From contig CANXME010002429.1 of the NCBI GenBank assembly GCA_948144175.1, positions 124,001 to 188,000 of the forward strand: DNA of 64,000 nucleotides, written 5' to 3'. The position numbers were made by a program, and so were the translations under genes. Below the pieces are notes generated by a model, which saw only the letters and a program-made list of their open reading frames with translations, searched no databases and had not been told where the DNA came from. This document shows, in pieces, positions 1 to 46,415 of the stretch (within the stretch, counting starts at the first letter, position 1; each line of letters begins with the position of its first letter). This DNA is from Closterium sp. NIES-65 (lineage: Eukaryota; Streptophyta; Zygnematophyceae; Desmidiales; Closteriaceae).

Positions 1-9
1 GGCCGCCCA

Positions 10-1674: not shown

Positions 1675-1713
1675 GACGGGGGTGTTCACCAGTTCAGCCC
1701 TGCCTACGAGCGC

Positions 1714-2616: not shown

Positions 2617-2646
2617 GGATCTCGAGCTTTTGTCCGCGATACGTCT

Positions 2647-13648: not shown

Positions 13649-16600
13649 TCAAGATGCTGTCAGCCAATCATTGAGGTCCGGAAGTCGATTCCGATCCGAC
13701 CCTGTGTCCCTGCCTCCTGCACTGCGTGGCGCCACATGGAATCCATTCACTGCACGCTCAGCAGCATGCTCTGATACCATAGCCTCTGGTTGTTGTGACC
13801 TCAGTCCACCCCCCTGGCCAGCTGCTGCATTACCACCACTTCCATAAAAACCGTTCGCACCAGCAAACGCATTCCCCTTGCTAGGACCACTTGCAAGTGC
13901 TTCACCAGGAACGCCCCCGCCATGTCGCATGTTGCCTCCGCCAGGAATGTTACCCCTGCCGCAAAGAGTGCTTGCTCCCAGCGGAGTGTTTCCTCCGCTC
14001 TCTGTTTCTGAGAGCTCACAGGCTGGCATTTCCAAATCCAGCAGTACTCTCCGCTTCGGCGCCATGGTGGCACTTGATGCTGATGCGTTTAGTGCTGCTG
14101 AGCTGGCCATTACTGAGTTGGCCAGAGGTAGAGCAGCGTTGGTGTGTGATAAGTTTGGCCATGTTGGGTTGTTTGAAGACTTCACAGCGTTTTGTGCTGC
14201 TTCCATCAACCCGTTCCTGTGACCGGAAGTTGGATGCCAGGTGCCATTAATGCCATTAGTACCATTCGTAGCAGCAGCACCAGCACCACCACCAGGAGCA
14301 GCAGCAGCAGCAGCAGCAGGGATCTCACCAGCCGCATATTGAGACGCCCTCTCTGCCGCTGGTCCAGCCATCTCATTCCGCCCATTCGCCTCGCAATGCC
14401 TTCTCAACACGCTCAGGACAGTACCATTCAACCTGCCTGGGATATGCAGGCCCTGACCCAAACTGCCGCCAGCATCCTTCCCCTTGGACGGGACCAGTGC
14501 TGATCCTTGGAGCTGCATCTCACTAGCCTCTCGCTTCCTCTTTTCTGCCTCAAGCACCACATGACTTAACTGCTGCATCCCCCCCAAAGCTTGGCTGGAT
14601 GTATGCGCCTCTTGCTGCTGCTGCTGTTGCTGGTGCTGGTGCTGCTGTTGCCGGTGCTGCTGCTGCTGTTGCTGGTGCTGCTGCTGCTGTTGCTGTTGCA
14701 GTTGCTGTTGCTGGAAGTGCTGCCGCCCGCTCCACGGCTGCTGTGGTTGCTGCAGTTGCTGCAGCCAAGGCTGCGGAAGCTGCTGCTGCTGGCTGTTGGG
14801 CCCTGAGTTGAAAGGAGGCATGGCGGCAGCAGCAGCGGGCAGCGTGGCACCATTTGACGGGAGCGTCACAGGTCGTGGGAGCTTGAACACCTCCCACGAG
14901 AATCCAGACGCTGCAACGTTGTGTGCAAAGGACTGGTAGTCCTTGCTCTGAGACGCTGCTTTGGGAGCAGCGATTTGGTGGACCGCCCCAGCTGATTCGC
15001 CCCTGACTGCCGCAGCTGCTCCTTGCTCCTCTGGCGAACGCAAGGTCGCAGCAGCACCGTCATCATTCCTGGGATTCTCAGCACCACGGGCAGCTGATTC
15101 AGCAGCACCCAAGGAGGGAGCGTCTGCTTCATCATCGCACATCTCATTGAGATCCATAAGCGCTGCCTTGGGAACAGCAGCAGCCGAGGCTGCAGCTGCC
15201 GCAGCAGCTGGAGAAGCAGCAGGGGAAGCAGCTGGAGAGGGCACGGCTGCAGGAACGACAGCAGGAGTGGCAGCAGGAGAGTCACGCAAAGAGTCAAGAG
15301 GCTCAGAATGAGCCGCAGGCTGAAGCTTTTGCTGCTCCTGTTTGCTGCGCAGCAGCGCTTCTTGCTCATGCCTCCTCTGCTCTCTCCGCATCTTCCTCGC
15401 CTCACGCTTCTCCGCCCTTTCTCTCCTCTCCTGCTCCTTCTTCGCCTGCCGTTCCACCCTCTCCTGCTTTCGCACCCGCTTCGCTTCCTTCCTTGCTGAT
15501 CTCTCAGCCTTTCGCCTCTCCCTCTCCTTCCTCTCCTGCTTTTTCTTCTCGACCTTCTGCCTTTCCTCCTCTGCCCGTGCTTGCCATTTCAAGGCCACCT
15601 GCAGATTCACCCTCACAGCCTCTCTCACCGCCTCACCCACTCCCACCACCTCACCAACACCAGACCCACACCCCTCTCCCATCTCACCCCGTCCCTCCAT
15701 CACCCCCCCATCCTCCCCCACCACCTCCCCTCTCTCCACGCCTCCCTGTACTCCTCTAAACACCTCACTCGCGCGCTGAAATGCGTCCACAGCGTCTTTC
15801 CAGCGGCCAGCGGTGGCAGAGAGCAGGGCGAAGCTGCAGAGGGAGGGGCCGTGCATGGGGGCGAGGAGGAGGGCGTTGTGTGCAGCTGAGAGGGCAGCAG
15901 AGAGACGGCCTTGGGCTCGCAGAAGCAGAGAGAGGTTGCACCAGGTCACATGGGATGCAGACGCAGGAGGAGGAGGTAGAGGAGGAGGAGAAGAGGAAGG
16001 AGGAGAAGATGGGTCGGTGGAAGGGCAAGGAGGCAGCGACGATGGGCAGTGCAGCGCGCGGGTATACGCTGCCTCGGATTCGTCAAGACGGCCAGAAAGC
16101 TGTAGGCAGAGGCCTGCACACAAAACAGGTGAAGTGGCAATTTAGACACAACGCCACACAGATAGTTCAACATAGAAACTATCGAGAGGTGCATGGTGCT
16201 CGAGTCAATGTGATGGGACTCCGTAACTCCGTAGGATGGATAGGTGCATGGCGCCAGCTAGGATGTTAGATGCAGTGGGTGAAGTTTAGTTTTGAGGCGC
16301 CTCAAAACTAGGATGGATACGTGCATGGTGCCAGCCAAGATGTTAGATGCAGCGGGTGAGCGAGTAAAGCAGAGCTGAGGCGTTTGAACCTCTAGCTTGA
16401 GACATCTCCACTTTGAAACGGAGGGCTATGAATGTGGCACAAAGCTGGGCACAGCTGGTGTTGCAAGTCCGACTCACCTAGGGAACTCCACGTGGCTGCC
16501 GCGGCGGCGGGATGAATATTGGTTTGGTGAAGAATATTTAGGTCTGGTCGACTGAAAGGTCCGGCTCATCTAGGGAATGTGCTCACCTAGGGAAGTGCTC

Positions 16601-22600: not shown

Positions 22601-22689
22601 GCGCGTACCTTGGCGGGTTGGTGCTCGCGGAGAAAGTGCAGCGCGAGGAAGAAATGCACCTCGGGGCTCTTGGGCTGCCGCTTCGCCAT
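13649..22689 (-). CDS. large tetratricopeptide-repeat protein, eight exons
   Basis: Exons: 22609-22689, 21988-22098, 20263-21837, 19806-19954, 19090-19627, 18223-18972, 17697-17946, 13649-16113. Phases agree and the total is 5919 bases (1972 aa). TPR helices are formed across splice joins: exons 4/5 give LANLGAALLHVGRYDEAAAC, and exons 7/8 give ATWSSLGLCLQLSGRLDESE. Another pair, CNLSLLLRAQGRLSAAL and SATAGRWKDAV, follows near residue 1200. Exon 3 encodes a 525-residue insert, His/Gln-rich then strongly acidic, lying between TPR segments. After about residue 1290 comes a long Lys/Arg/Glu coiled coil, then a Gln-rich tract and a Ser/Asn/Gly tail ending LPDLNDWLTAS. TPRs mediate protein binding; I do not recognise the specific family. 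The last intron holds the 16-bp satellite. Confidence 0.82.
14600..14725 (-). repeat. CAG-type microsatellite coding polyglutamine
   Basis: In the last TPR-gene exon, imperfect CAG/CAA triplets give about 40 residues that are nearly all Gln with some His. They lie in frame with the model. Confidence 0.9.
16233..16359. repeat. tandem duplication with a palindromic junction, TPR intron 7
   Basis: Two ~50-base copies (16233-16282 and 16310-16359, about five differences) are separated by a perfect 24-base palindrome at 16287-16310 with core TTTTGAG-GCGC-CTCAAAA. A decayed relative of such a palindrome (TTGAGACATCTCCA) follows near 16397. Confidence 0.9.
16474..16499 (-). repeat. copy of the exon 7 end and its splice donor
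   Basis: 26 bases identical to the true exon 7 boundary at 17692-17717 (plus strand CTCACCTAGGGAACTCCACG and onward). It lies at the other side of the satellite, so the array sits between two copies of the same exon-intron border. Confidence 0.85.
16557..17707 (-). repeat. 16-bp satellite (about 70 copies), each copy a 5' splice site
   Basis: Unit GTGCTCACCTAGGGAA on the plus strand; on the sense (minus) strand it reads TTCCCTAG then GTGAGCAC. That is the last exon bases and donor of TPR exon 7, whose real boundary (exon base 17697) is the right edge of the array. Variants (a 17-base unit, CATCTAGG, AATTGC) cluster near the ends. The middle is almost homogeneous, which suggests recent expansion or homogenisation. 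It lies wholly in intron 7. Confidence 0.95.
19951..20145 (-). repeat. tandem partial copy of TPR exon 4 and its acceptor
   Basis: The segment from the exon 4 start through its acceptor and ~55 intron bases (about 19935-20012) recurs at about 20046-20140. The copy carries a stop in the exon-4 frame, so it is a pseudo-exon. Each copy ends at a decayed palindrome (TGTGACGTCTCCAA near 20000, CAGATGTCTCAAA near 20131). Confidence 0.85.
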
Positions 22690-22815
22690 GTTCAGTAGCG
22701 CCTGCGGCGGCGACGGGACGAGTGTGGGAAACGAACGGGCAGTTTAAGAATCAGATCCGCAGTTGAGTATGTGTGGGAACGAGCTGCCGCTTCGCCATCT
22801 CCAGTTGCGTTTGCG
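22672..22815. repeat. duplicated 5' end of the TPR gene
   Basis: The bases around the start codon (GCTGCCGCTTCGCCAT and the following ~35 bases) recur about 110 bases upstream at 22782-22815. The second copy has a start codon context (GCCATC) but no matching coding sequence. Confidence 0.7.
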
Positions 22816-23560
22816 ACGGGACAAAGTGAAAGAAACCAGGAAGTTACGAGGAATGAAGCACGAGGCAGTCACGGAACGACGCCATGGGACTGGGCGGAGT
22901 GGCGGGACTGGGCGGAGTGGCAGTTCCAAAAGGGAATGCCAAGCGGCGGAGTCAGCGGCCAGATCCGTAGTTTTGACTTTATTTAAAACGTTTCTGTCAG
23001 CCGATTTCGCTAGTCGCACTAATTTTCTGGGGTCTGTCGAGATACCGACCGCCTGACATCTGCCTTTTTTTCTGCGCGGATAAGGAAGGCAGTCCTAGTC
23101 GCCGTCGTCACTGTCTACGCAAGACGAGCAGCGAATCTACCAGATATCTAACGACTGAATTAACGAACGATGGCGGATACTAGTTGCGATTCTCGCCTGT
23201 GACGGCGGCGACCGGTAGTACCAGCGCAAACCATGTGGAAACAAGTGGCGTTTGCGACGTCTGGAAACAGACCGGAAGCGCGACAGCGTTGACGACGGCG
23301 ACTGTCGGTGACGGCAGTACTAATGCAATCCGCCACGTCACGGTCTAGAGACGGCGGGAGACCAAGGATGACCATATCGCGTCACACGCTCTACTAGTGT
23401 GCTGTTTTAGCCTGCCGCTGTCTATCTGTCACCAAGCTGGCGAGGATGACGGTACTGAGGCAACGGCAGTGACTTCTGAATCGACTGAAAAGACACGCTT
23501 TACTAGTGCGCCGCTGTAGCCTGCTTCTGTCTATCAGTCGCTAAGCTGGCGAGGAGGACG
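22690..23560. other. intergenic region between the TPR and Lys/Ala-rich genes
   Basis: Probably the promoter of the TPR gene. 23395-23480 and 23505-23590 are tandem copies (about 112 bases apart, around TCTACTAGTG..CTGTCTATC..AAGCTGGCGAGGA), the second running into the 3' end of the next gene. No RNA gene seen. Confidence 0.6.
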
Positions 23561-24526
23561 CTACTGAGGCAACGGCAGTGGCGCCCTCGTCACGCGACGG
23601 GAGAGCATTGAAACCTTTCTCCTATCCGAAATCGGAGAAAATACGGTAAGGCGAGAGCCGACGGAGGGATAAATCAATGGCATCAAAGCTGCGGGTGATG
23701 ATTGGCAGTCGAAGCGACGTACTGCTTTCAAGATCTTGGATCGGTCTTGGGCCGATTGGCAGGGTGGCGACGACGACGACGGTGCCTGCTTCGCGACTTG
23801 CTCCTTCGTCGCCTGCTCCTTTGTCGCAGACTGCTTCGTCGCCGGCTGCTTCATCGCCTGCTGTTTTGTCGCCTGCTGTTTCGTCGCCTGCTGCTTCGTC
23901 GCCTGCTGTTTCGTCGCTTGATGTTTTGTCGCCTGCTGCTTCGTCGCCGGCTGTTTCGTCGCCGGCTGCTTCGTCGCCGGCTGCTTCGTCGCCGGCTGCT
24001 TTGTCGCCGGATCCTTCGTCGCCTTTGAACAGCGCGCGGCTTGGGCCTTCATCGCCTCCTCCGGCGATTCTTCAAGGGGCCGTTTGCCCTGCGCTTTAGT
24101 AAGAGACGCCTTCCCTCTGGCACTCGTGGCTGCCGCCGATGACTCGCCGTTTCCCCTCGAAACCGTCGCCCTCTGTGTCGTCATCGTCGTCGCCGTCGCC
24201 GTCAACGCCATTCTCGTCGCCGGGTCCTTCGCGTGCTTCTTGCCGCTCGCCGATGCGCCATTGGCCGTTGCTGAGGGCCGTTCCCGCTTGCCGGTGCGGA
24301 CGCGCTTCGTCTCTCCACCGCCACCCGCCGGGATTTCTGGTGTCTTCACAACGATCGACGGGTTTTTAGTTGGTGGAATGCCAGGCGTCAACGCGACAGG
24401 CAACGGTGGCCGATTCTTTGATGCGGCGACGCGATTCGCTCGTGGTCGTCCGGGGGATTTTGTCGCAATCGACGCTGGCTTCTCTGATTTGCTCGCTCGA
24501 GAAGATTCGACGCGAATCGACGCCAT
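23561..24526 (-). CDS. Lys/Ala/Thr-rich repeat protein with AT-hook-like motif
   Basis: Single open frame, 321 residues from the ATG at 24526; upstream frame has no ATG. Residues about 20-35 include KSPGRPRANRV, whose GRPR core resembles an AT-hook that binds the minor groove of A/T DNA. Residues about 170-250 are ~16 copies of a pentapeptide of the type KQPAT/KQQAT, a 15-base tandem repeat. Composition (Lys, Ala, Thr, Pro, few hydrophobics) recalls linker-histone tails, but no globular winged-helix domain is visible. The last 50 residues are ordinary. It may be a DNA-associated disordered protein, or an open frame on repetitive DNA; no intron is needed. Unknown function. Confidence 0.5.
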   Translation of the reverse strand: MASIRVESSRASKSEKPASIATKSPGRPRANRVAASKNRPPLPVALTPGIPPTKNPSIVVKTPEIPAGGGGETKRVRTGKRERPSATANGASASGKKHAKDPATRMALTATATTMTTQRATVSRGNGESSAAATSARGKASLTKAQGKRPLEESPEEAMKAQAARCSKATKDPATKQPATKQPATKQPATKQPATKQQATKHQATKQQATKQQATKQQATKQQAMKQPATKQSATKEQATKEQVAKQAPSSSSPPCQSAQDRSKILKAVRRFDCQSSPAALMPLIYPSVGSRLTVFSPISDRRKVSMLSRRVTRAPLPLPQ

Positions 24527-30400: not shown

Positions 30401-33284
30401 GGCGGTGGTGGTGCAGGAGGAGCAAGGGCACGACCTGCCGCACGCCATGCGCACTCATGACTTCCCGTGAGTGGGAATTGATGATGGGTTTGTTTGAATT
30501 TGTATGTTACCCTGCAATGCTCCCTGCCGGCTGGTGATGGCGGTGGATGGGCGCAAGGCAGTGGTGGTGCAGGAGGAGCAAGGGCACGACCTGCCACACG
30601 CCATGCGAACACATGACTTCCCGTGAGTATGGAAGGGGCGTTGCTTTGTTAAATTCGCCTGTCATCCTGCAGTGTTCCCTGCAGTGAGCCCTGCAGAGCT
30701 CGCTACAAGGGCAAACGGGGCCGATAGTGGGTTTTGAGACCCTCAAAACCCTGCAGGCGCCCACGGGGCCGATATCGGGGAGGCAGCTGGTGATGGCGGT
30801 GGATGGGTGAGGCAGTGGTGGTGGAGGAGGAGCAAGGGCATGATCTGCCGCATGCCATGCGCACCCACAACTTCCCGTGGGTGTGGATAGGGGTTTTTGT
30901 TTGGTGCTTGTGTTGAATCGCCTGAATAGTGGTGGTGGAGGAGGAGGAGGAGGAGGGGGAGGAGCAAGGGCATTACATTAACTGCCACATGCTGTGCACA
31001 TCTATGAATTCCTTCCAGCGAGTGTTTTTTGAGAATTCTCAAAAAACACTCACTAAGGGCATTACCTGCCCACATGCTGTGCACATTTATGAATTCCCTC
31101 CCAAGACACACATCCCCCCCTCTCCACCCTTCTCCTCTCCACTTCCTTATCCTCCCTTCTCCAGCCATGCTCTCACCCACTGCTCGTCGCCCCTATACAA
31201 GCCGACACACGCCGGCCGGCTGCGCGAGTGGATGGATTTCCACAGCACTGTTCACCGCGTGGACCTCTTCCTGCTGTACGATGCGGGCGGCGTGGACGGC
31301 GCCGTGCGACATGCGCTGCACCCGCTGCTGGCGGGCGGCTCAGTGCAGATCGCGGATCTCAGAGACGCCGCCCGGTTCGAGAGCTACCACCACGCTCAGG
31401 TGGGTATGTTTTGTCTGTATGTGTGTGCGTGCGTGCTTATGTGCGGGTGCGTGCGTGTTGCGTTGTGTGTCCTTGGAGCGACTTTTGAGAATTCTCAAAA
31501 GTCGCTCCAATATGTATGTCCGTGTGTTTGTGTTCGTCTGAACAGATGAACAGCAAGTTTGTCTGTTATGAACGCCAGCTTCACTTCCCCTCTGAAACTT
31601 ATGAACATCTTCTTCCATTCTGCTTTGCCTCCTTTTCCTTCCCTTCCCTTACCTCCCACCCTTCCCCTCCCTCCCTTTCCCTCCTCACCTCCATTCCTCC
31701 AGGTCCTAGCAATGAACGATGGCATTTTCCGCACGAGGCACCTCAGACTCCCCCTCTCTCCCTCCCCTCCCTCCCCTCTCCTCCCCACGCTCCTCCCATC
31801 CCCCTCACCTACATTCTTCCAGCTCCTAGCGATGAACGACTGCATATTCCGCACGCGCCACCTCTCCCGCTGGACGCTCTTCCTCGACTTTGACCACTAC
31901 ATCACCATCCCCCACGCCCTCATCTCCAACCGCTATCCCCCCACCACCACTTCTGCCACCGCCGCCACCACCACCACCACCACTCCCACCATCACCATTG
32001 CCACCACCACTGCCACTGGTACCGCCACCTTTCCCAGAACGCTCCTGGCTGACCCGAGTAACAGCAGGGCGCTCTCTCTGCTGGCGTTCCTCGATGGGAA
32101 GGGCCAGACTGTTGACGGGAGGTGGCAGGGGGAGGGCGAGGAGGGGTGGACGTGGGTGAGCTTCGGGTGCTTCGTCTTCTCTGTCGACCGCTGCGCTCCT
32201 CTGCCCGACATCAGGTGAGACGCTTGACGGGAGGGGGCAAGGGCAGGGGCTGGGCGGGGGACAGGGGCAGGGGCAGGGGCAGGGGGGGGCCGAGGAGGGG
32301 TGGACGTGGGTGAGCTTTGGGTGCTTCGTCTTCTCTGTCGATCGCTGCGCTCCTTTGCCTGACATCAGGTGAGACGCTTGCGCCTTCACTCTTGCCCCTT
32401 CCCTTTAATCTTTGCGTATGCTTCCTTTTTTTCTTCGTCTTCTTTTTTCTTCTTCTTTCTTCCTTTCTTTCTTTCTTTCTTTCTTTGTTATGTGGTTCTA
32501 AAAAGAACGAGCGTAGGGCAGCACCGATCCTGCATTCCTATTTCAGTGACTGGTAGCATGTTTCTGTCTCTGTCACCTCTCACAACCTGTGCAGTGAGGG
32601 GGACGAGTGGGCAGTGGAGCGCATGGTGTATCGGGACCCTGAGCCATACTGCAGAGAGAAAAGCAGCTACAGCGACAAGACCGTGTGCCATGCCTCTAAC
32701 CATCCCCCCTGTCTTCCACCTCCCACCACCACCCACAACCCGTGCAGTGAGGGGGACGAGTGGGCGGTAGAGCGCATGGTGTATCGGGACCCTGAGCCAT
32801 ACTGCAAGGAGAACAGCAGCTATAGCGACAAGACCGTATGCCAAAAGGCAGATGGCCTTCGCCAACTCGCCATCAACCCGCGCAAAACCCTCGTGGTTCA
32901 GAGCAACCGGTGAGTAGAACAATCCATGGGTTGCTAAACTCCCCAAGGTTGTTCAATGCTTCATCAGACCCCCATACCAAAAGCGCATGCAAGTCAATGC
33001 AATGGAACACAGTTCAGCCTCCTATTGGTTTTTTCTATAACTTTTATGAGGTGCTTTGGTGCAGGATTTTGAATGCGGAGCCGGGAGGCTACATAGCGCC
33101 CACGGGGAGTGTGCGCATAAACTACTTCAAGGGGCTTTCTGAACGCGACCGCAGCACCTGTGAAATTATCATGCCCAATTCTGATGGTACCATCGATGCC
33201 AACTTGACTCAAGATTACTCCGTTTCGAATTTAGCCGTTGCCGCTCGATATAGATTAGCTGCTAACAGCAATGGGCTAACATAA
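27450..33284 (+). CDS. GT92-family (DUF23) glycosyltransferase, probable Golgi galactosyltransferase
   Basis: Exons: 27450-27806, 28343-28533, 28976-30466, 31165-31399, 31823-32214, 32748-32909, 33065-33284; 3048 bases, 1015 aa, phases agree. Residues 47-68 (HLVLILAVTNLALLFLHPLL) are a signal anchor, so a type II Golgi protein is likely. Exon 2 has SSFVVLGLSPMALHSLPRV; exon 2/3 rebuilds the CRW motif; exon 3 ends with GTVTAHYPGEGF. Exon 4 has LREWMDFH and LLYDAGGVDG; exon 5 has NDCIFRTRHL and the DXD-type metal motif in FLDFDHYI. Plant GT92 members include beta-1,4-galactan synthases (GALS); the exact donor and acceptor are inferred only. Exon 3 carries a ~380-residue Gly/Lys/Ala-rich insert not expected in the family. 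Introns hold extra partial exon copies. Confidence 0.85.
28733..28905 (+). repeat. pyrimidine minisatellite in GT92 intron 2
   Basis: Repeats of CTCTCCACTCCACC-like units, all C/T on the sense strand, close to the 3' splice site at 28975/28976. Confidence 0.85.
29160..29410 (+). repeat. in-frame 78-bp minisatellite in GT92 exon 3
   Basis: Units start at about 29182, 29260 and 29338, 78 bases apart, encoding repeats of the type VVQGRGAGRGKGNGRGN. Being 26 codons long it preserves the frame. Confidence 0.9.
30512..31085 (+). repeat. four partial copies of the GT92 exon 3 end in intron 3
   Basis: The exon 3 end (around GTGATGGCGGTGGATGGG to the donor CCC/GTGAGT) recurs at 30512-30627, 30752-30885, 30930-31020 and 31052-31085, decaying to the right. 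Copies 1 and 2 keep a donor-like end. Junctions carry palindromes: a 23-base one at 30729-30751 (GGGTTTTGAG-ACC-CTCAAAACCC) and a perfect 32-base one at 31020-31051 (core TTTTGAG-AATT-CTCAAAA). Confidence 0.88.
31473..31510. repeat. perfect 38-base palindrome in GT92 intron 4
   Basis: Inverted arms of 19 bases with no spacer, centre AATT, inner arms TTTTGAG/CTCAAAA, outer arms TTGGAGCGAC and its complement. It could extrude as a cruciform or form a hairpin in pre-mRNA. Flanks are TG-rich and only weakly similar to each other. Confidence 0.97.
31703..31770 (+). repeat. copy of the GT92 exon 5 start
   Basis: TCCTCCAG then GTCCTAGCAATGAACGATG matches the true exon 5 start at 31823 (acceptor plus the first ~45 bases). 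It is used in the model as intron because the rest of the exon is missing. Confidence 0.85.
32224..32373 (+). repeat. copy of the GT92 exon 5 end and donor
   Basis: The bases encoding GWTWVSFGCFVFSVDRCAP and the donor GTGAGACGC of exon 5 (to 32214) recur, ending at about 32373. One base change in the copy leaves the protein reading intact, so exon repetition is conceivable. Confidence 0.88.
32595..32690 (+). repeat. copy of the GT92 exon 6 start
   Basis: Acceptor TGTGCAG plus about 95 bases of exon 6 (EGDEWAVERMVYRDPEPYC) precede the full exon at 32748; about 8 differences. Confidence 0.88.
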
Positions 33285-34189: not shown

Positions 34190-37100
34190 ATGGCTGCGAC
34201 TGTTGCCACCACCATCCAACTCTCGTTAGCCGTACACGGCATACGCCCTGCTCTGGCGCCCTCCCACGGGGATCATTCAATAAAGGGTACAAAGGGAAAG
34301 TGCCGCGTGACAATCCCATGGCGGAGCAGCCGCAGCGGCAGCAGCAGGAGCCGAATCAGTACCAGCAGCAGCAGCAGCAGCTGCAGCGGCAGCAGCAGCA
34401 GCAGCAGGACCAGGATCAGCGTCAGCAGTAGCTTCAACAGCAGCGGAGGTAGTGGTGGTGGCAGGAGCGACGGGTTTATTGAGTCGACTCAAAAATCGAC
34501 TTACCACAGCGGAGGCAGCGGTGGCAGGAGCGACGGGTTTTCGTGGACTGCGAGGCGCGTGGAGAGGAGGCGACAGGGTGGGCGAGGGGGGAGAGGAGTA
34601 GGAGGTGGAAAACCGTGGGGGGCGCCAGACAGGGAAAAATCTGGAGAGAAAATAGAAGATGACAATAATTCGCGAGATGGTGACTGTATCAAGCGAGAAA
34701 GTGACTATATCAAGCAGGGTGGTGAGAATTTGAAGCAGAGAGCTGACCCTGTGAAGACGGATCGTGACTATATGCAGCGGATCAGGGATGACGGCGGGAT
34801 TGGACGGGTGGTTACTACCCAAGTCGCAGCCCTCCCTGCTCGCCTGCACCAGATGATACCTCCCCTCTCCTCCCCGCACTTGCGAAACCTAGCCCCTTTC
34901 CTCGCCGCCTCCCTGCTGCTTCTCTTCCTCCTCCTGCTGCGCCGCACCGTCGCTCGCACGTTCCTTGCAGCTTCCTCTGCTGTGCGTCGTTTTTTCACCC
35001 AGCTTTCCCGTGCTGGAGGTCTCTTATTGAAGCCTGAAGGGCGTAAAACACCTTTGCACCATGCCGGGATGCGAGAAGACAGCTTGCAGCTGCAGCGGAG
35101 GGCCCCGCTTGTCATTGGTCAGGAGCAGGAGCAGCAGCAGGATGAGGAGGGGCAGAAGAAGGAGGAGGAGGAGGAGTCACCAGCTGCAGCAGCACCGCCA
35201 CCACCACCAGCAGCAGCAGCAGCAACAGCACCGCCACCAGCAGCAGCAGCAGCAGCAGAAAAGAAAAGAAACAAAGCAGCAGCAGCAACAGCAGCAATAG
35301 TAGCAATAATAGCACCAGAGGAGCTTGTGTCAAGTCTTGAAGAGATTTCGTACTTGCGGGATAGGGTTCGGCTTATGATTGAGGAAGAGGAGGAGGAGGA
35401 GGAGGAGGGGGAGGAGGATGACGAGGAGGAGGAGTGGGGGGGAGGGGGAGGAGGAGTGTGGTGAGGAGGAGTGGGGGGAGGAGGATGAGGAGGAGGAATT
35501 GGGGGAGGAGGAGATGGAGTGGGGGGAGGAGGGGGAGGAATGGGGGGAGGAGGAGGAGGAGGAATGGGGGGAGGAGGAGGAGGAATGGGGGGGAGGAGGA
35601 GGAGGAGGAGGAGGAGGAGGAGGAGGAGGAGGAGGAGGAGGAGGAGGAGGAGGAGGAGGAGGAGGAGGAGGAGGAGGAGGATGAGGAGGAGGGGGGTGAG
35701 GAGGAGGGGGGTGAGGAGGTGGGTGAGGAAGGGGAGGGTGAGGAGGAGGAGGGGTTGAGCACTGAGGGGATAACGGAGCAAGAGCAACAGCAGGTTCAGC
35801 AGTCTCTGAAGCAACTGATTGGTGACGGTGGGGCTGACGAAGGGACTATTGTTGCTGCTGTTCGTAATGCTGCTGCTGGTGATGGTGGTTCCAGTGGTGG
35901 CAGCAGTGGTGGTGGTGGTGGTGATGTAGATGAAGTGTTTGAGTCACTGAATGCGGCAGATGACATTTTTTCATTGATGCTGGCACTTGATGTGCGCTGG
36001 GTGGATGCAACAGAAGGTTCAGGTGAAAATTCAGGTGATCTTGGTGGTTGTTTACTTTTTGAAGCAGCAGGGGAACTAGCGGCAGCGGGGGAAGCAGTGG
36101 AGGAAGAAGCTGAAGAGGCAACAGACGGAGAAACAGAGAGAGCAGCAGAGGGAGCAGTAGACGAAGCAGCAGATGCAACAGCAGAGGCAATAGCAGAGGG
36201 AGCAACAGAAAAAGAAGCAGAGGGAGCAACGAAGGCAACAGCATTGGGAGCAGCAGAGGAAGCAGCAGAGGGAGCAACGGAGGCAACAACATTGGGAGCA
36301 GCAGAGGCAACAGCAGAGGAGGCAGCAGAGGAAGCAGCAGGAAAAGCAGCAGAGGTAGCAGCAGCAGAGAAAGCAGCAGAGGGAGCAGCAGAGGCAGCAC
36401 GAGAGGCATCAGAGGAAACGGCAGGAGATGCAACAGGAAAAGCAGCAGCAGGGGAAGCAGCAGCAGGGGAAGCAGCAGCAGGGGAAGCAGCAGCAGGGGA
36501 AGCAGCAGCAGGGGAAGCAGCAGCAGGGGAAGCAGCAGAGGGGCTAGTAGAGGAAGCAGCAGAAGAAGAATCACAGGGAACAGCAGAGGGGGCAGCAGAG
36601 GAGGAAGTGGACGAAGAATCCGAGGGAGAAGCAGGGGAAGCAGCAGAGAAAGCAGCTGAGGAAGAAGCAGAGGAAGCAGCAGGAGAAGCTGCAGGAAAAG
36701 CGGGCAAAGCAGAGGCTGTGACGGGCGTAGAGGAAGCAAGGGAAAACAAATCCGAAGGGAGCGTCTACAGGAAGAGAAGGGTTGAAGTTGAGGAGGAGAG
36801 GATAAAATCGGAGCTTGTTCCTGATTGGTGGCAGAAGGCCTGGGATGAGGTGGTCTTGCAGCGGGCACAGGGATTGGATGGAGGTTCGGGCCGAGCCAGA
36901 CCAACAGGTTTGGGAGGCGCTCCTGAGAAAGGCACACGACTGGCTGTGATGCGTATGTGGGGATGGGTGGGGAGGGGTGGAGGGTGGGGAGGGTTTGATA
37001 CCATGGGTTGTACGGCTGTGTTAGGTTGCACATGATAACATCATGTGCAATGGAAGCTTCTGCAAGTGTGTGGAAGGGGTTGGGTTGGGGGGGTTGGGGA

Positions 37101-39378
37101 AAGCAGATGTGGGTTGGGTGAAATAATGGTACGAGTCAGATGTGCGTGCATAGGCATCATGAGGCTTCCAAATGCTACGAGCCAAATCCATCCCGTGTTG
37201 TAATCGCATCGTGTAACTTCAGGTGCATTCTTTTTTGTTTCCGTACACTGCCAGTCAGGTGCATTCCCATCAATAATCATTGTCATAGACACTGGTTTTG
37301 TCATTTTCACATTGTCATTATGATGTTCGTTGTCAGGGGCATTGGAGCATTTTAACTCGCACGGCCACATCCCACCAGAGGATCTCAAGCAGGTGCCCAC
37401 ACCACATATCAACCTATTACACCACGCGAAACCACATCACGCCACATCAGACCGCAATATACGATTGTTTAACCTTCTCGGACTTCCGGGTTTCAACCGT
37501 TTCTCTTGGGAACTCCAAAACGTGCTCAAACTGACAGTCCCTTTTCTTTGCTGTTCTATCCGCAACCTCCTGTGAGCCGTCAGATCTGGGCGGCGTGGCG
37601 GGCATCTGGTGACACGTGGCACACTCACAGGGACTCTGTGCGGCTGATAGTGTTCAACTCCGCCGTCCAGCTGGCACTGGATGAGTGCATGAGGTGAGTG
37701 ATAGGGCCAGGCCAGGATCTGAGAAATGGAGTGCACCAGATGAGTGACTTATGATCTGAAGCCCCTAAAAAAATCCGCGGGGATGGGGTGATTGTGGGAG
37801 TGGTAGCCGGTTTTCGAAAATTCTCATACAATGTTGACATACATTGTGAGTCACCCTTACATGCCCCTAGGCTACCCCACCTAGTTCCTGCCTATATATT
37901 CTACCTCGCGTGCAGGTCGCCCTGTCTCCCCACCTCCTACGGCCCATCATTCCTCGCTGCTATGGCAGCAGCCATCGGCCTCTCGCCATCCTTCACCCCA
38001 TGCTCCCCCCCTCCCTCCCACGACACCGAGCCTCACGTGCAGGTCGCCCTGTCACCCCACCTCCTCCGGCCCATCATTCCTCGCTGGCATGGCAGCAGCC
38101 GTCGGCCTCTCACAATCCGTGGCCCTCGCAGCAACACTCAAAGGCGTGGTTGCCAGGCTGGAAACAGAGCTCATCGCTTGCAACGTGAGTCTACAGGGTG
38201 TTTGTGAGGATACGGAAAGGCACACTAGACCAGCAGCCAATGTCGGCCTCTCACCACCCGTGGCCCTCGCAGCAACACTCAAGGGCGTGGCTGCCAGGCT
38301 GGAAGCAGAGCTTGTCGCTTGCAATGTGAGTCTGCAGGGTGTTTGTGAGGATACTCAAAGGCACACTAGACTGGCACTTCCAGTCCACCTTGCGCCATCT
38401 GTAGCCCTCGCAGCAACACTCAAAGGCGTGGTTGCCAGGCTGGAAGCAGAGCTCATCGCTTGCAATGTGAGTACTCTGTGTGGGTGGTTATAACGAGGTG
38501 TGCGCGCGTTGTTGTGTGACAATAACAGGGCGGTAGGAGTGCTGCCATGGTATCCGGTGTTCCCCCTGTATTGATCTGGTTGTTTTGTGTGAGTGTGTTC
38601 AAAATAGGGATTTGTATGATTCTTCGTGTGCCTCCATGCAACTCTTGAGGTGCTTCAATATGCTACTCCATCACATACCTTTTTGGTTTGTGCACGTGTG
38701 GTGTGTGGTTGTATGGGATGGGAAGCAGGGCATGATAGAAGCGTTCATGTGGCGCCATGCAAGCGTCAAGTTGCGCCAGATAGCAAACCTGCTCTCTGAC
38801 TTCACTCCTCCTGCGATCTCTGTACGTGGCTTATGTGCCTGAATGATCAACACACACGTGCACATGCTCTTGGGCTGCACTCCTGCACACATCCACACGT
38901 TTGCTTTCTGAGGCGCCTCAAAAATCGCCCCGTTCGGCTTTTGAGGCGCCTCAAAAAGGATGATCAACACACACGTGCACATGCTCTGCTGCTGCACTCC
39001 TGCACACATCCACACGTTTGCTTTCCCCCTCGTCTTCCCACTCCCTCCCCCTCCCTCCCCCCATTCCTCTCTTTGCATCCACACCACCTTGTGCTACCTG
39101 TATCACAACAGTATGACTCCAGCACCCCATTCCTCCCGCTTTCACCCATCTTCTCCCCTTGCCCCCGTCTTCTCCCCTTGCCCTCATCTTCTCCCTTTGC
39201 CCCATCGTCTCCCCTTGCCCTCATCTTCATCCATCCCCACCAGCCTGAGCTAGCGTCTTCAGCCAACTGTCTGGGTGTCATGCTGACTCGCCGGCAGCGG
39301 GAGGAGCTGGCATGGATGTATGAAAGGGCTGCTGGTCCCATGCATGTGGTGCTCGTGAGGACTGCTCTTGGGGTATAA
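34190..39378 (+). CDS. paralogue 1 of an unrecognised streptophyte protein (single TM helix, acidic repeats, helical C-terminus)
   Basis: ATG at 34190. Exons: 34190-36952 (with an unresolved frame change in the GGA tract at 35390-35700), 37337-37392, 37584-37693, 38043-38184, 38729-38821, 39244-39378. The last five match paralogue 2 exon for exon (56, 110, 142/148, 93, 135 bases). The N-terminus is Ser/Arg-rich and could be a transit peptide; a hydrophobic segment follows VAALPARLHQ (LAPFLAASLLLLFLLLL). Then come poly-Glu and EAAAG-type repeats, IKSELVPDWWQKAWDE, and a C-terminal helical region (IWAAWRASGDTWHTHRDSVR; ELAWMYERAAGPMHVVLV). The C-terminus recalls, from memory, an uncharacterised plant plastid family with a PxWW motif; function unknown. 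Confidence 0.65.
35385..35750 (+). repeat. GGA microsatellite encoding polyglutamate
   Basis: Nearly pure GGA/GGG repeat, including ~100 bases of uninterrupted GGA. The upstream reading frame ends at 35464 and the downstream frame is offset. Either a short intron (donor-like G/GTGAGG at 35461) or a repeat-length change accounts for it. Confidence 0.95.
37916..38467 (+). repeat. four copies of paralogue 1 exon 4 (GPSFLA..ELIACN segment)
   Basis: Starts at about 37916 and 38043 (both with acceptor GTGCAG), then 38240 and 38378 lacking the first part. Three copies end TTGCAAC/T followed by GTGAGT donors (38184, 38324, 38467). Only 38043-38184 is complete. Alternative use of the others would keep phase 0 at the 3' side. 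Confidence 0.85.
38845..39025. repeat. 64-base tandem duplication with two junction palindromes
   Basis: Copies at 38845-38908 and 38962-39025 (about four differences) flank TGAGGCGCCTCA (38909-38920) and a perfect 18-base TTTTGAG-GCGC-CTCAAAA (38939-38956). Lies in the last intron of paralogue 1. Confidence 0.93.
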
Positions 39379-40560
39379 TGTAGGGTTTGCCAAGCTAGCT
39401 ATCGACCACCACGTGACGGAATGTGTTTTCCTTTGTTGATTGAATTTAGCTGATTGCTACTTCACGAAAATTTATGTAGTGTGAAATCTCGAATGCACTG
39501 TTCTATCCTGTCGCATCTCATTTAAGGGGTGTGGCACCAGCGGCAGTTTTCGTACCGAGTCAGTCTGTAGTGATGTTTCTTTCTTCACGCCTTCTCCACG
39601 CCCTCCAACTTCGCAGCATCATGCATCACACCACCCCTCCCTCCCATCATTCCGTCACACCTATCACACTTCAGAAATAGAGGTATCATTTCTAACTAAT
39701 ATGAACATTTGAGTTCGCCAGCTTGTCGAGTGGGTCGATGGCGCACGCGTCACTTCAACAGATTTCACACTGCTTGGCGGATGCGGAGCTACACGTGGCA
39801 CGTAACCCGTGCTTCCGTACGATGGCTGATGGTTCGTTCATAGTGGCGAGTTGTAACTGTGTTCAGCACACCGGACACGGCAGACGGTTCGCTGTCGCGG
39901 GTGACATGACACTGAAGCTGACTGAACAATGGGTATCGAGGGTGTCGGGCGGCCTCACTACCCGACGTAGGATCCTGATGATGGCTCCTGCTCCCTCAGG
40001 TGTGGGACCCAAACGGAACGAGGTTTGGCAACTCTGAAGAGCAATGGCGAAACCTGAAGAGCAAAATGAACTTCCCTCTCTCCTGGGTGGCATGGCGAGG
40101 GTTTCAGTCCAAACCAGAACTCGGATCCACAACGCGGAAATGTTTTTTTTTTCATGCCCCGGGTACCGTCAAGTTCGCCCACATTCACGGTAACACCCGC
40201 CTGTACTCGGCGACCCACTCGCTCAGCGGCTAAGCGCCTGCACCTGCCAGGCACCGGTGGGAATTTTTCACCCCGCAAGCTCAGTGGCGACTTCTAGTAC
40301 GAGTGGCAATTTTTCCATGGCAATCCAGCCACCGCAGCTGGCGTTTCATCCGCTCTTGGTCCGCCACCCCTGCGGAATTCTGTCGAGGCAGGAGTTTCCT
40401 TTCAGTTCCAGAATTACTCCCGGGAAATTCTAACTAGCCAGCTGCCCTGAAGTGTCATACAGGAGTCCCATACCAATTCACTCTCTGGCCCGTTGATTTG
40501 AACCATGAAAAGGCCTTGGCAGCTCACACCACATACGTTCCCTTTCCATAGGCGACTCCC
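39379..40560. other. 1.2 kb between the two paralogues
   Basis: A 104-codon frame at 39723-40037 and overlapping frames on the other strand show no family motif. Probably 3' UTR of paralogue 1 and promoter of paralogue 2. Confidence 0.45.
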
Positions 40561-42350
40561 ATGGCTGTGCAGCTTCAAGCATGCCGAGGCGTGAAGCTTC
40601 AAACCTACCATGAACCGTCACCCAGCGTTAGTTCTTGTGGTGACCCTAATGGTGGTAACCCTAATGTTGGTAACCTCAATTCCACTCGCATTATTATTAG
40701 TGGTAACTGGACCGCATCTTATAATCGTCTGAGCCCAGTAGTAGTAGCTTCGAGACGACTACAAAATCATCATGTTTTTAGTCTGAGACGAGCAGTACCC
40801 AGGAGCCGGGCAGGACCAGAAACGTTAGCCATTTTACCAAGGCGGAGGGGTGTTCTGGCTAATTGTAGGCCCTTGCAGGTGAATGTCACGAGGCGCTTTG
40901 AAACACCATGGCATGGAGTGCAGGGTCGTGGTGTGCGAGTTACTGCTCTGCAGAACAATGATGTGCGGTTAAATCCGTTGCAGAGTAGCACTGATACCAG
41001 CAGGGAGGATTGCTCCTGGCAAGAGAAAATTCTGAGGCGTTTTATTGCACTTACCACATTGTACAGTGGCAGCAGCAGCAGTATCAACGTCAGCAGTAGC
41101 AGCAGCAGCAACATCAGCAGTAGCAAGGAGTTTGATTCCCGGACAGCTGTTGAGTCCATTCAGGAGCCTTCTGGTTACAATGTTACGGCACAGAACTGGA
41201 TCCCCAGCAACAGGGACGATGAATTCTCGAGGTTGTGGGAAGAAAGACGAACGCGGAGGCGGCGAGGGGGAGGTAGAGCGGGAAGAGGAGACGGTATTTG
41301 GAGGGAAGGGGATAACCAGAGGGTATGGTTTCCGAGGGATGGTGATTATGTTGAGAGGATTGGTGACTATATGGAGAGGATTGCTGACGATGTGGAGAAA
41401 ATTGGTGACGAGTGTGTTAAGGAGATTGGGGAGGGTGTACGGCAGCAGATACGCCATCGAAGGAGACTTTTTGAGAGGAGGAGGAGAAGGGGTTCGTCAG
41501 CCTTGGGATTGTCGGACTTGTATAAATCTCCACTAGAGAAGGCCGTGGATTCGGTGTCTGACTGGTTTGCTGACGTGTCAGCGTCAGTGGCTGAGTCAGT
41601 TCCACCCACCATGGATAAGGCCAGGTGTGTGTGTGTACGTCACGCCTGGTGTGTGTGCATCACACCTGGTCACCCACCCACTCCAAACTTCCTGCTCACA
41701 GTTTTCCCTTCTCACCCACCCCTCAGTTCTCTCATAATTCTCTCATAGTTATGACTTCTATAATACGCTTTCGCCCACCCACCCATCTTCCCACTGCCCG
41801 CAACCCGTTCCCAACCACTAACAGGCTTGTTCTTTCCACTCACTCGCCCACTATCCAATCCACCCATCATCCCAACCCACCCACCCACTTACCCACCCCT
41901 CCACTGACAGGCGTGTTCTCACCACCCAGTCGCCCACCCCCCATTTGCTTACAATCCACCCGTCATCCCACCCTCCCATCCCCCCACCCACCCGTCCACT
42001 GACAGGCGTGTTCTCACCACCCAGATCGCAGCCCTCCCTGCTCGCCTGCACCAGATGCTACCTCCCCGCTCCGCCCCTCTCCCCCTCCGCCTCGCCCTCC
42101 TCCTCTCCTCCTCCCTCCTCCTCCTCTGCCTTCTCCTCCGCACCTCCCTCGTCGCACGTAGCTTCCAAGCAGCTTCCGCTGCTGTGCGCTCATTCTTTGC
42201 GCCTGTGCTGTGGGCTGTGAGTCCCGAGGAGGTTTTGCAGCAGCAGGAGGAGGAGGCTGAACGGAATGCACAGCAGCAGCAGCAGGAGCAGGAGAAGGCT
42301 GCGCGGAAGGCATTGCAGCAGCAGGAGCAGAAGGCTGAGCGGAAGGCCCT

Positions 42351-42381
<31 letters not shown>

Positions 42382-42791
42382 GAGGAGGAGGAGGAGGAGA
42401 CGGAGAAGGAGGAGAAGAAGGCTGATCGGAAGGTATGTGTTGAGAATTCTAAAGAAATGCCAGCTTTCGCTGCTATGGGCTCATTCTTTGCGCCTGTGCT
42501 GTGGGCTGTGAGTCCTGAGGAGGTTTTGCAGCAGCAGCAGGAGGAGAAGGCGGAACAGAAGGCATCGTTACAGCAGGAAGGGATAGCTAATCGGAAGGTA
42601 TCTGCTGAGAATCCCAAATTAACGGCAGCTGCCGCTGCTGTGCACTCATTCTTTGCGCCTGTGCTGTGGGCTGTGGGTCCTGAAGAGGTTTTGCTACAGC
42701 AGGAGGAGAAGGCAGAGCAGAAGTCACTGCAGCAGCGACAGCAGCAGCAGCAGCAGCAGGAGAAGGCAGAGCAAAATTCGCTGCAGCAGCG

Positions 42792-42824
<33 letters not shown>

Positions 42825-44967
42825 AGAGGGCCAGCAGAAGCATAGCCGGCAGCAGCAGAAGCAGCAGCAGCAGCAACAACAGGAGCAGACAGGCAGTAGC
42901 GGGATTGGTGAAACTGGTAGTTCTGCCTTTGTGATGAAAACTGTGTTTGGGTTCAGTGGCGGTTATGCTGGTCTTAATGGTGGAGTGGAACCAGCAGGGA
43001 AAGAGGCAGAAGACATTCACCGCACCATGCTGGCTCTTGAAATGAGTCAGGTTGATACAACAGAACGCTCAGGTGAAAGTTCAGGTGAACGTGCAGGGAG
43101 ACCAGCGAAAGCACCGAAGGGCATGGGTGGAGTAAGTAGTCAATCTGGGAAGAAATTTAGTCACCACCTCAATCAATGCAACACAGGCAGCAGAGTGGAT
43201 CGTAAAGCAGTGAAGGGTCAAAAGAACGGCAATGGGATCAAATCGGATCTTATCCCGGATTGGTGGCGAGATGCCTGGAGCGAGTTGGCCTTGCAGCTGA
43301 CACAGCGGTTGGTTACAGGCTCGACTGCAGGCTCGGGTGCAGGCGCGGGCAGTGGCCAAGCTGGAGTGGCTGGTTCGGGAGGCGCTTCGGTGAAGGACAC
43401 ACGGGTCGCTGTGATGGGTAAGTGGGCTGGGATGATGTGGGTTGCAGTGGGATGCAGTTGGAAGGGGCTGGGGCTACTTGGATTGGGTAGGATGGCATGG
43501 CTATGAGACTAGTTGGTCTTTGAAAATCTTCATAGATCGGGTTTTGAGTCAACCCAAAACAAAACAAATTGGATTCGAACCACAGCAAGCGGAAAACACG
43601 ACCCATGGATCGGTTTATTAGAGGTGTTGACGTAATCTATACTCATCTGATTGTGTTTCTTTGCAATGGCGTGCAATTTCAATCTCAGGTGCTTTGGAGC
43701 AGTTCAACTCGCAGGGGCACATCCCGGCAGATGCTCTCATTCAGGTGTGGTGCACCGCACCTGACCACATTGCTCCGCACCACATTGCACTGCACCACAC
43801 CGCACCACACTAGGCCTGTTTGACACGTTCTGCATCTCTCATGCAGAAGAGACGCACAATCACACTTCAGCAGCATGGATACATCTCCGTCAACTCACAT
43901 CCACCCTTCAAACCCATCCCTATCCACCCATCAACTTTTCAAACCCATCCTCATCCACCTTTGTTGTCAATCCGTCAGATCTGGGCAGCGTGGCGAGCAT
44001 CTGGTGACACGTGGCACACTCAGAGGGACTCTGTGCGGCTGATAGTGTTCAACGCCGCCGTCCAGCTGGCACTGGACGAATGCATTGGGTAGGGGAAACA
44101 AATAAGGAGGGATGGGGTGATGGGATGGCGTGAAAGGGATGGGTTGATTGAGATTGTTGGGATGGGGTGATGGGATGGGGTGAGAGGGATGGGGGGAGAT
44201 GGGTTTGGCTGAGAGTGATGGGGAAAAGAGATCACCGCGTTTCCCATTCCCATTCCCCAACCCCCTTACCCCATCCCACTTACTGTCAACAATACTTCCA
44301 ACCCTCCATGCAGCTCGCAACACCCATCCAGCCTCCCCACCTCGGGCCCATCATTCTTAGTGGCTATGGCTGAAACGGTGAGCCTGGCCCCGCCTGCAGC
44401 TCTGGCAGCAGCTGCGGGTCTCACAGGCTCCCTATCCCGAGGTGACTTTTGAGTCGACTCGCCTGGCCCCGCCTGCAGCTCTGGCAGCAGCTGCGGGTCT
44501 CACAGTCTCCCTATCCCCCTCTGCGCCCCGCCCCTATACACACAGCTCCCACCAGCCGCCCAAACTCCCCACCTCGGGCCCATCATTCATAGTGGCCATG
44601 GCAGAAGCTGTGAGCCTGGCCCCTCCTGCGGCCCTGGCAGCAGCGCTGCGAGGGGTGGCCAGCAGAGTGGCAGCAGAGCTTGTGGCATGCAATGTGAGTG
44701 CCTTGTGTTGTCTGCTGTGTGCTCCCTTGTGAGTCTACTCAAACGCCATGGCAGCAGCGGTGTGCCTCACATCCCCATCAGCTTTGGCAGCAGCGCTGCG
44801 AGCAGAGTGGCAGCAGAGCTCGTGGCATGCAATGTGAGTGCAGGTGTGCACGTTTATGATCATGTGTGATTGGTAATCAGAGCAGTGGCTGGTAAAACAG
44901 GCTGCTTTTTGTTAGGCGCCTCAAGAATAGGCTGCCTAGCCATCATTGGCAATTTCGACCCTTCCAC

Positions 44968-45002
<35 letters not shown>

Positions 45003-45462
45003 CCAATGCATTTCGCTCTCTTTGTTTTTTTAAGCAGGAGCTGTTAGAAGAGAGTATGAGAGGCAAAGCGGAGGTGAAACTGCAGCAGATTTCGAAGCTT
45101 CTCTCTGAGTTCACTCCTGCTTTAGTCGCGGTGCGTGCCCTTTGCTTCTTATCCTTTGCTTCTACCACATGTTATGCACTTGTACGCAAAGAATGGGTTT
45201 CTGGATGTGCATGCGCATGCATGCACATCTTTCCACATCCATCCATTCATGATATGCATGAATATGCGTCTGCTTAACTCCTCTGTGCCCTGGTTCCATA
45301 TGATCCCTTTTCTGCCATCACTGTCAGCCGGAACTGGCATCCTCAGCCAACCTTTTACGTGAGATGCTGTCACAGCGAGAGCGGGAGGAGCTGGCTTGGA
45401 TGTACGAGAGGGCTGCCGGTCCCAAGCATGCCGCACTCGTGAAAAGAGTACTTGGGCTTTGA
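40561..45462 (+). CDS. paralogue 2 of the unrecognised protein family
   Basis: ATG at 40561. Exons: 40561-41624, 42006-43417, 43689-43744, 43979-44088, 44546-44693, 45038-45130, 45328-45462; 3018 bases, 1005 aa, all phases agree. The N-terminus is unlike paralogue 1, apart from the basic DYVERIGDYMERI segment and RVLTTQIAALPARLHQ. A hydrophobic helix (LRLALLLSSSLLLLCLLL) follows. Exon 2 has three copies of SFFAPVLWAVSPEEVLQQQ separated by Gln-rich tracts. The C-terminal half has IKSDLIPDWWRDAWSELALQ, ALEQFNSQGHIPADALIQ, IWAAWRASGDTWHTQRDSVR, GPSFIVAMAEAV and ELAWMYERAAGPKHAALV. A plastid or membrane location is inferred from the N-terminus and helix. Function unknown. Confidence 0.75.
42160..42720 (+). 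repeat. threefold in-frame duplication inside paralogue 2 exon 2
   Basis: ~80-base segment (TCATTCTTTGCGCCTGTGCT and flanks) at about 42171, 42455 and 42628. The joins before copies 2 and 3 hold decayed palindromes (TGAGAATTCTAAA at 42441, TGAGAATCCCAAA at 42606), related to TTTTGAG-AATT-CTCAAAA, and are translated in frame. Confidence 0.85.
44314..44843 (+). repeat. extra copies of paralogue 2 exon 5
   Basis: Partial copies at 44314-44430 and 44461-44512 precede, and one at 44749-44843 follows, the complete exon 44546-44693. Joins contain GAGTCGACTC (44451-44460) and TGAGTCTACTCA (44730-44741). Confidence 0.85.
44969..45002 (+). repeat. 34-base poly-T
   Basis: Uninterrupted T run 35 bases before the exon 6 acceptor (45037/45038) of paralogue 2; could act as polypyrimidine tract. 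Confidence 0.95.
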
Positions 45463-45546
45463 TATTTTGGTACAGGGCTTCTAGACGATACGGTAATATT
45501 TCTGGAGGGATTTCTTGGATATAAGGTAAAGGTTAGGGTACCCTTG

Positions 45547-45629
45547 GGATTGAGTGGGCCTGCCTGGACGTATGAGAGGGCCGCTGGTCCCACGCATGCA
45601 GCAGTCCTGAAGAAAGTGCTTGGGCTTTA
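45547..45629 (+). repeat. second copy of the paralogue 2 terminal exon
   Basis: After the stop at 45462 the bases encoding AWMYERAAGP and HAA..VLGL plus a stop recur (TTTAA-type end at ~45629). It is a partial tandem copy of the last exon. Confidence 0.8.
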
Positions 45630-46211
45630 ATTAAGTTTATGCCACTAATATGACTCAAGTGATGATGCCTCTGGCCATGTGCGTGTGAAGGGACTTCTTG
45701 TGTGTTCATTGGAGCCTCCAGTCCAATAAATTATTCCACACATTTTTGGAATACACTGGCTGAGTCTGAGGTTGCACTTTGATATTCGGGGATTCGATTG
45801 GCTGTTCTTACTAGTTACAGGTCAGAAAAGAATTGTGAGACAGTGAGAAGCTCCAGTACGGTAGGTGAATCCTGCCTTGGCCGTGAGAATATTCATGGAA
45901 TCCCTGTATCATTTCATCACACAATAAAATTACAGACTGCATGCCTGACTAGCAACATCACACCAGCAAGACTTCCTACAGCTGTCTCTGCAATCCTAAC
46001 TCCTGATACTGCCTCGTATCATTACTACTTGCGATTTTCCATGCTTCACTTGCTGAAGAAATCTTTAATGCCCGAAAAAACAGTCCTGCAGGAGGGAGTT
46101 GAAAAGATCAACAGACAATCAAGGGAGGGCCCGGAGTGGGTGGGAGAAGAGAAAAAACAAACGCAAAAAAACAGCGATGAGCTGTAGCGCAAAAGACAAC
46201 CAGAGAAAGGC

Positions 46212-46415
46212 AAATGACACGCTTACTAGGAACTAAGGGGTTAACCGAAAGCGTCCCTTCAACCATGCCCAAGCTGTTCTTGCCCCTGCTGCTGGAGATA
46301 AAAGTGTTGTTTTGAGACGTCTCAAATGACACGCTTACTAGGAGCTAAGGGGTTAACCGAAAGCGACCCTTCAACCATGCCCAAGCTGCTCGTGCCGCTG
46401 CTGCTGCAACAGCCA
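46212..46415. repeat. tandem duplication of the DnaJ gene 3' end with a palindromic junction
   Basis: ~100-base copies begin at 46212 and 46324 (AAATGACACGCTTACTAGGA). Between them is a perfect 16-base palindrome TTTGAG-ACGT-CTCAAA at 46311-46326. The right copy includes the last codons and stop of the DnaJ model (exon 11). Confidence 0.92.

Follow-up and report, generated by a model that had tools for sequence, protein, structure and literature searches.

Independent tandem duplications in the genome of Closterium sp. NIES-65 are joined at short palindromes of one design, TTTTGAG-N4-CTCAAAA, and the occurrence of these palindromes was confirmed to be genome-wide. The arrangement copy–palindrome–copy, the family structure of the palindromes, the comparable age of inserts and duplications, the scarcity of split centers, and one paralog with a single, unoccupied target copy were observed directly. 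We interpret the palindromes as dispersed ultra-short inserts, probably a miniature mobile element, which enter at staggered breaks and duplicate a target of 16 to approximately 150 bp; we regard this interpretation as evenly balanced between right and wrong. A tiny mobile site had been among the possible readings of the original prediction, and this one is retained here; taken as a whole, the earlier interpretation was partly supported.

The scan covered the 874-Mb assembly of 2,400 contigs, of which the window (the whole stretch of 64 kb analyzed here) represents C2131:124001–188000. The assembly-wide search for TTTTGAG-N4-CTCAAAA, which had been proposed as a check, yielded 30,327 exact places compared to four for the reversed control; approximately two are predicted from an assumed GC content of 55% alone. 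Further counts were obtained from a 264-kb sample comprising the window and 20 stretches of 10 kb, and since the 200 kb outside the window were picked for holding pattern hits, shares in the sample are not genome averages. Among the 87 perfect 14-bp palindromes of the sample, 65 belonged to four species with the centers TCGA (30), ACGT (17), GCGC (13), and AATT (5). The remaining 22 occurred once each, and a Markov model expects 17 to 20. The center had been described as always self-complementary, which is right and too weak, because only four of the sixteen possible centers are present among the perfect palindromes of the sample. One of these four followed TTTTGAG in 143 of 202 places of the sample, either strand being counted. 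Within the window, the pattern was found 22 times with up to three mismatches (2.44 expected from shuffles); in comparison with the four real cores, at most three mismatches were found at 12 places and at most four at 20 (0.07 and 0.93 places expected, respectively, according to the Markov model). The computed hairpin folding of four tested palindromes as single-stranded DNA gave z-scores of −7.5 to −9.9. A search of the window against Rfam gave no match. Matches to the 14-base pattern also occurred in viral contigs, among the matches listed.

The palindromes and target copies of the window are compiled in Table 1. The sites named originally were found again except for a place near 16397, which lies beyond the limit of four mismatches, and the TCTA center given for the site at 44727 is not self-complementary, being one base away from TCGA. 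A perfect AATT palindrome (core 31483–31500) and a decayed core between 88-bp copies (23474–23491) had been overlooked.

Table 1. Palindromes and adjoining target copies in the 64-kb window
Feature	Position	Named in the original prediction	Observation
Target copy 1, 51 bp	16232–16282		90% identical to copy 2 at 16309–16359
GCGC-type core, perfect	16290–16307	yes	within insert 16283–16308; also in homeolog L159
Target copy 2	16309–16359		pairs with 16232–16282
Decayed core	19996	yes	at most 4 mismatches to a real core
Decayed core	20129	yes	at most 4 mismatches to a real core
Decayed TCGA core, 3 mismatches	23474–23491	no	between 88-bp copies 23384–23471 and 23493–23580
Imperfect palindrome, 3-base center ACC	30732–30748	yes	precedes 30749–30883, a copy of 30337–30473; inside a stretch shared with homeolog L158
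Copy 1	30976–31016		90% identical to 31060–31101
AATT-type palindrome, mirror arms	31018–31053; core 31027–31044	yes	identical in homeolog L158
Copy 2	31060–31101		pairs with 30976–31016
AATT-type palindrome, perfect over 34 bp	31475–31508; core 31483–31500	no	no clear adjoining duplication
TCGA-type core, 1 mismatch	34477–34494	yes	within open reading frame, between copies of ~36 bp
Copy 1, 66 bp	38843–38908		95% identical to 38960–39025
Two GCGC-type cores	38906–38956; cores 38906–38923 and 38939–38956	yes	
Copy 2	38960–39025		pairs with 38843–38908
Decayed AATT core	42438–42455	yes	in frame within VCVENSKE, between repeated coding segments
Copy 1, 57 bp	44382–44438		98% identical to 44461–44517
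TCGA-type insert GAGGTGACTTTTGAGTCGACTC	44439–44460; core 44447–44464	yes	right arm shortened to CTC
Copy 2	44461–44517		pairs with 44382–44438
Decayed TCGA core	44727–44744	yes	between 44595–44701 and 44745–44841
Decayed GCGC core, 3 mismatches	44909–44926	yes	
Copy 1, 84 bp	46211–46294		94% identical to 46323–46406
ACGT-type insert	46295–46322; core 46310–46327	yes	core overlaps start of copy 2 by 5 bp
Copy 2	46323–46406		pairs with 46211–46294

For the analysis of the layout, direct repeats with a score of at least 24 were sought, both copies having to lie no more than 22 bp away from an isolated core with at most two mismatches; 52 of the 97 sites with at most two mismatches were left out, having another site within 130 bp or lying near a locus end. 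Direct repeats flanked 32 of the 45 isolated cores of the sample compared to 124 of 1,000 random places, and the proportion among perfect isolated cores of the sample was 22 of 26. Of the perfect exceptions, L020:7040 and L031:4018 are flanked by repeats slightly beyond the 22-bp limit; no flanking duplication was found at the other two (L023:2012 and window position 31483), which were counted against the insert reading. An earlier, cruder test with a score of 30 had given 25 of 47 versus 128 of 1,500 and was changed because nested repeats masked adjacent ones. Seen from the duplications, the sample held 143 near-adjacent tandem duplications, and a core with at most four mismatches was located at the join in 34 of them (approximately 4 expected from random places). 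The claim of one palindrome design at independent joins thus holds. No core was recognizable in the remaining 109, which were also counted against the insert reading and indicate that duplication and filler arise without the element as well. The palindromic share drops with the divergence of the copies, from 10 of 21 at an identity of at least 95% through 9 of 26, 6 of 31, and 5 of 28 to 4 of 37. The length of the duplicated target varied between sites from 16 to about 150 bp. When spacers of up to 120 bp were admitted, 154 duplications without and 41 with a recognizable palindrome were counted (median length 95.5 and 68 bp, respectively). Palindrome-free tandem duplications with short spacers, e.g., at L022:3267–3547 and L034:6559–7191, thus outnumber the palindromic ones, and some of their copies are 99% to 100% identical. 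At L022:4156 and L022:4215, different core types (GCGC, ACGT) occupy successive joins of one repeated target with near-identical borders. An array of 24-bp units at L025:6164–6469 contains a GCGC-type core in each unit (TTTTGAGGCGCCTAAAAAATCACC).

The outer arms are specific to the type of the palindrome. The TCGA type reads AGGTGAC-TTTTGAG-TCGA-CTCAAAA-GTCACCT, its end points differ between left and right, and many sites carry shorter or other arms; CACGAGG was identified as an outer arm of this type. Halves of the ACGT type, CACGTG-N12-TTTTGAGACGT, were found at 1,169 places and at none in the reversed control, and among the first 100 of these places listed, three pairs represented both halves of one 54-bp palindrome. 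The total length of the palindrome is up to 54 bp for the ACGT type and about 36 to 40 bp for the TCGA type (few sample sites). The outer arms had been described as often extended by local sequence, which does not agree with the long arms of the sample, most of which follow a family pattern such as the one given for the ACGT type. The arrangement AG-N5-core-N5-CT of the ACGT type was detected at 789 sites and not in the control. In the first 50 of these, the N5 arms vary from site to site, but the left and right arms of a given site are largely mirror images: pairing was found at 214 of 250 positions (107 ± 10 after shuffling), and 28 sites have exact mirrors compared to 6 after the arms were shuffled among sites. 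With each distinct arm pair counted once, 113 of 145 positions pair (50 ± 7 after shuffling). This mirroring suggests that both arms of one insert are derived from one half sequence. For the TCGA type, the arm with its mirror, GAG-TCGACTCAAAAGTCACC, occurs at 4,490 places, and an arm with all three GAG bases different at 65, many of which sit in short tandem arrays; neither count includes arms in which one or two of the three bases differ. A mirror half with at most four mismatches was present for 149 of the 165 perfect 9-base halves in the sample. The outer ends are ragged and the center is whole and constant, which suggests that two ends are joined through the self-complementary center. Head-to-tail 17-bp repeats of the TCGA half element, probably caused by slippage at TCG, were seen at L031:4018–4060 and in other contigs. 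A telomerase-like stepwise addition of half units, considered on account of these runs, was rejected in favor of the simpler slippage between the TCG of the center and the TCG of the outer arm.

Cores have accumulated more changes where the two copies are further apart in substitutions (Spearman 0.61, n = 45, including cores of up to six mismatches, some of them arising by chance). For cores with at most four mismatches, the coefficient was 0.53 (p = 0.0009, n = 36). The palindrome is therefore about as old as its duplication and was not maintained afterwards. The two copies differ by 1% to 24%. An unoccupied state of the insert at L023:8971 was found in the paralog L019:3811–4024, which contains one 20-bp target copy and no palindrome (72% identity over 217 columns). 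It was the one clear empty paralog obtained with 81 joined queries from the sample, and this yield was counted against the insert reading. A weak match of 35 bp in the same direction, i.e., to an unoccupied single copy, was obtained for L030:4164. The comparison of the paralogous intron of the window genes A and B showed no empty site, the divergence being too high.

The homeologous contig C2069 shares six joins of the window (16290, 23474, 30732, 31027, 34477, and 38906/38939) and the solo palindrome at 31483 with 99% to 100% identity; hence, these are not young. Near-identical duplicate segments (97% to 100%) in the assembly were noted for the contigs C6, C1658, and C347 and for C2131 and C2069. 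At 46310, the 84-bp sequence is present once in C2069, and the insert is missing. The two copies at this site differ by 6%, the homeologs by approximately 2% or less. Of five informative bases in C2069, one is like copy 1 on the left and four are like copy 2 on the right, as in a recombinant of both copies, so that the insert-free state is ambiguous and no proof of an ancestral state; the insert may have been lost secondarily by recombination between the copies. The 79-bp unit made up of a copy and its palindrome (44382–44460) also differs in number: judging from the match coordinates, C2069:1175048–1175341 contains four copies and three palindromes, the window two and one.

The window regions 34200–39400 and 40900–45500 contain two tandem paralogous genes, both resembling the NIES-68 protein P0122. 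This protein is 40% identical to the window frame 42055–43503 (55% of the query covered) and has one copy of the segment FFAP..AVSP compared to three in the frame, where one join reads through the decayed AATT core. The NIES-64 protein P0121 shows the same repeats as the window frame, the third one shortened, and the peptide encoded across the decayed core also occurs in a NIES-64 protein. The repeats were compared partly by eye. In the gene at 44311–44841, partial exon copies surround the palindromes, and the proteins of NIES-64 and NIES-68 hold this exon once. The TCGA core at 34477–34494 is read in frame as IESTQK, with VESIQE in gene B (41146–41172) and IESTQE in the NIES-68 protein at the aligned place. 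An old insert may thus have turned into coding sequence here. The frames at positions 1–4969 of the window are of a copia-type retrotransposon, and the frame 4091–4966 has many relatives in Closterium strains, 69% to 95% identical among the best 120 matches listed.

According to the insert reading, the element would consist of the common 18-bp core TTTTGAG-NN/NN-CTCAAAA, with one of the four centers, within mirror-image outer arms. Insertion would start at a staggered break, the cuts in the two strands being some 16 to 150 bp apart. Filling in of both ends would duplicate the intervening target, and a palindrome copied from an existing genomic palindrome would be placed between the ends. Each end would carry one arm up to the center, and joining would proceed via the four self-complementary center bases. 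Neither an enzyme encoded by the element nor a longer relative of it turned up in the sequences covered, which was also counted against this reading. As for the origin of the cuts, an accident is favored by the large number of similar duplications that contain other fillers (109 of 143), a dedicated process by the strong bias toward one filler and by the intact center. A dedicated, sequence-specific system of Closterium would set nicks tens to approximately 150 bp apart and join the filled ends via a palindrome copied from a hairpin template, such that each end gains a TTTTGAG arm whose self-complementary four-base tip pairs with that of the other end; we consider this version unlikely. If true, DNA would be inserted here in a manner that differs from known transposition. 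Palindromes would have been spread in their tens of thousands, and their insertion would have created a large part of the genome's young local duplications.

An explanation that may well apply, even though we lean away from it, is that staggered breaks arise by accident and ordinary repair closes them after filling in the ends, leaving tandem duplications, during which the joining polymerase often copies one of the abundant palindromes and thereby spreads them passively. That breaks with 3′ overhangs yield duplications is established, according to the relevant passages of PMC8355091 and PMC5730883; the palindrome-free duplications are more numerous than the palindromic ones (154 versus 41) and of similar size, and of 132 non-palindromic fillers, 41 have a stretch of at least 14 nt in common with DNA no more than 3 kb away (control 1; low-complexity and nested repeats included). 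However, copying of random pieces should often give half-palindromes, and mirror-less arms are rare (65 versus 4,490). The non-palindromic fillers of the sample contain no strong common motif (the best 8-mer was enriched 7-fold, with 4 cases), which indicates that one filler is strongly preferred, and among the youngest duplications the palindrome is present at 10 of 21 joins, in a sample enriched for palindromes. That the palindromes came first and provoked the duplication of adjoining sequence by fork stalling or fold-back priming appears improbable. Units of copy and palindrome do multiply, as the differing number of the 79-bp unit in the homeologs illustrates, and palindromes are also arrayed at periods of, e.g., 37, 42, 53, and 61 bp. 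Nevertheless, in the listed copy pairs of the window the palindrome is situated between the copies and not at their outer ends (Table 1), the empty paralog lacks both duplication and palindrome, and joins and palindromes are of similar age. Fold-back priming, suggested originally, is not supported as the main cause, since the 30,327 dispersed cores with their type-specific arms imply that the palindrome was not made from local sequence.

There is very little to recommend a derivation from larger transposons, in which two terminal inverted repeats would have been joined tip to tip and the four-base center would be the former flanking target. The type-specific arms, whose inner tip is conserved, do look like inverted repeats, but a full transposon would hold the arms apart, which conflicts with the rarity of mirror-less TCGA arms (65 versus 4,490), and the center is restricted to four sequences. 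We give hardly any credence to an assembly or library artifact, which the original prediction had also suggested. The long-read assembly does contain near-identical duplicate contigs; however, the copies have diverged by 1% to 24% with matching decay of the palindromes, the inserts (six joins in the second contig) are common to slightly diverged homeologous stretches, and the peptide read through a decayed core is present in a NIES-64 protein. Moreover, the sequenced material was in the haploid phase, as stated in a passage of the Closterium genome paper (PMC10407611).

If the palindromes are indeed inserts, a relative of the land plants would harbor a high-copy insert smaller than any known to us from a nuclear genome, each insertion leaving a local duplication. 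Intron length, gene variation, and in-frame coding repeats could stem from the inserts, which is open to direct testing, and the palindrome would tag the joins of staggered-break repair in a readable way.

A description of the motif was not found among the matches listed from the largely open-access literature covered, and the main text of the Closterium genome paper (PMC10407611) contains no word beginning with "palindrom". In bacteria, REP elements are small palindromes of 20 to 40 bp with a high copy number, as outlined in part of PMC3733652. The Closterium palindromes are likewise small and, with 30,327 exact places, very numerous; in contrast to REP elements, they reside in the nuclear genome of a streptophyte alga, are associated with a long target duplication, and have four types of center. 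REP elements carry a tetranucleotide tag and are mobilized by RAYT, their associated tyrosine transposase. Spacer integration into CRISPR arrays by Cas1-Cas2 duplicates a target of tens of bp and leaves the insert between the two copies, and the Closterium insert has the same position; however, any local DNA is duplicated here, with variable length, and the insert is one palindrome family. Patch-mediated repair in rice, which belongs with the tandem duplications from staggered breaks considered below, was reportedly described by Vaughn and Bennetzen in 2014. Miniature inverted-repeat and foldback transposons are short, dispersed, palindromic, and flanked by target duplications, all of which also applies to the Closterium insert; a miniature element has an autonomous relative with a transposase. 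In contrast to the few fixed bp of the miniature elements, its target duplication comprises 16 to about 150 bp, and we know of no DNA transposon with a target duplication nearly so variable, which was counted against the insert reading. The arrangement of ragged outer ends and a constant center, within 18 to 54 bp, is the reverse of transposons with their constant terminal repeats. Small tandem duplications arise from staggered breaks by fill-in with CST and Pol alpha-primase followed by end joining, as presented in sections of PMC8355091 and PMC5730883, and the direct duplication of a target of tens of bp is found in Closterium, too. Those sections describe no constant insert, whereas the Closterium joins hold one palindrome family (34 of 143, approximately 4 expected). 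With its variable long target duplication and constant center, the Closterium element does not match miniature transposons, and with its constant insert, it does not match plain repair duplications.
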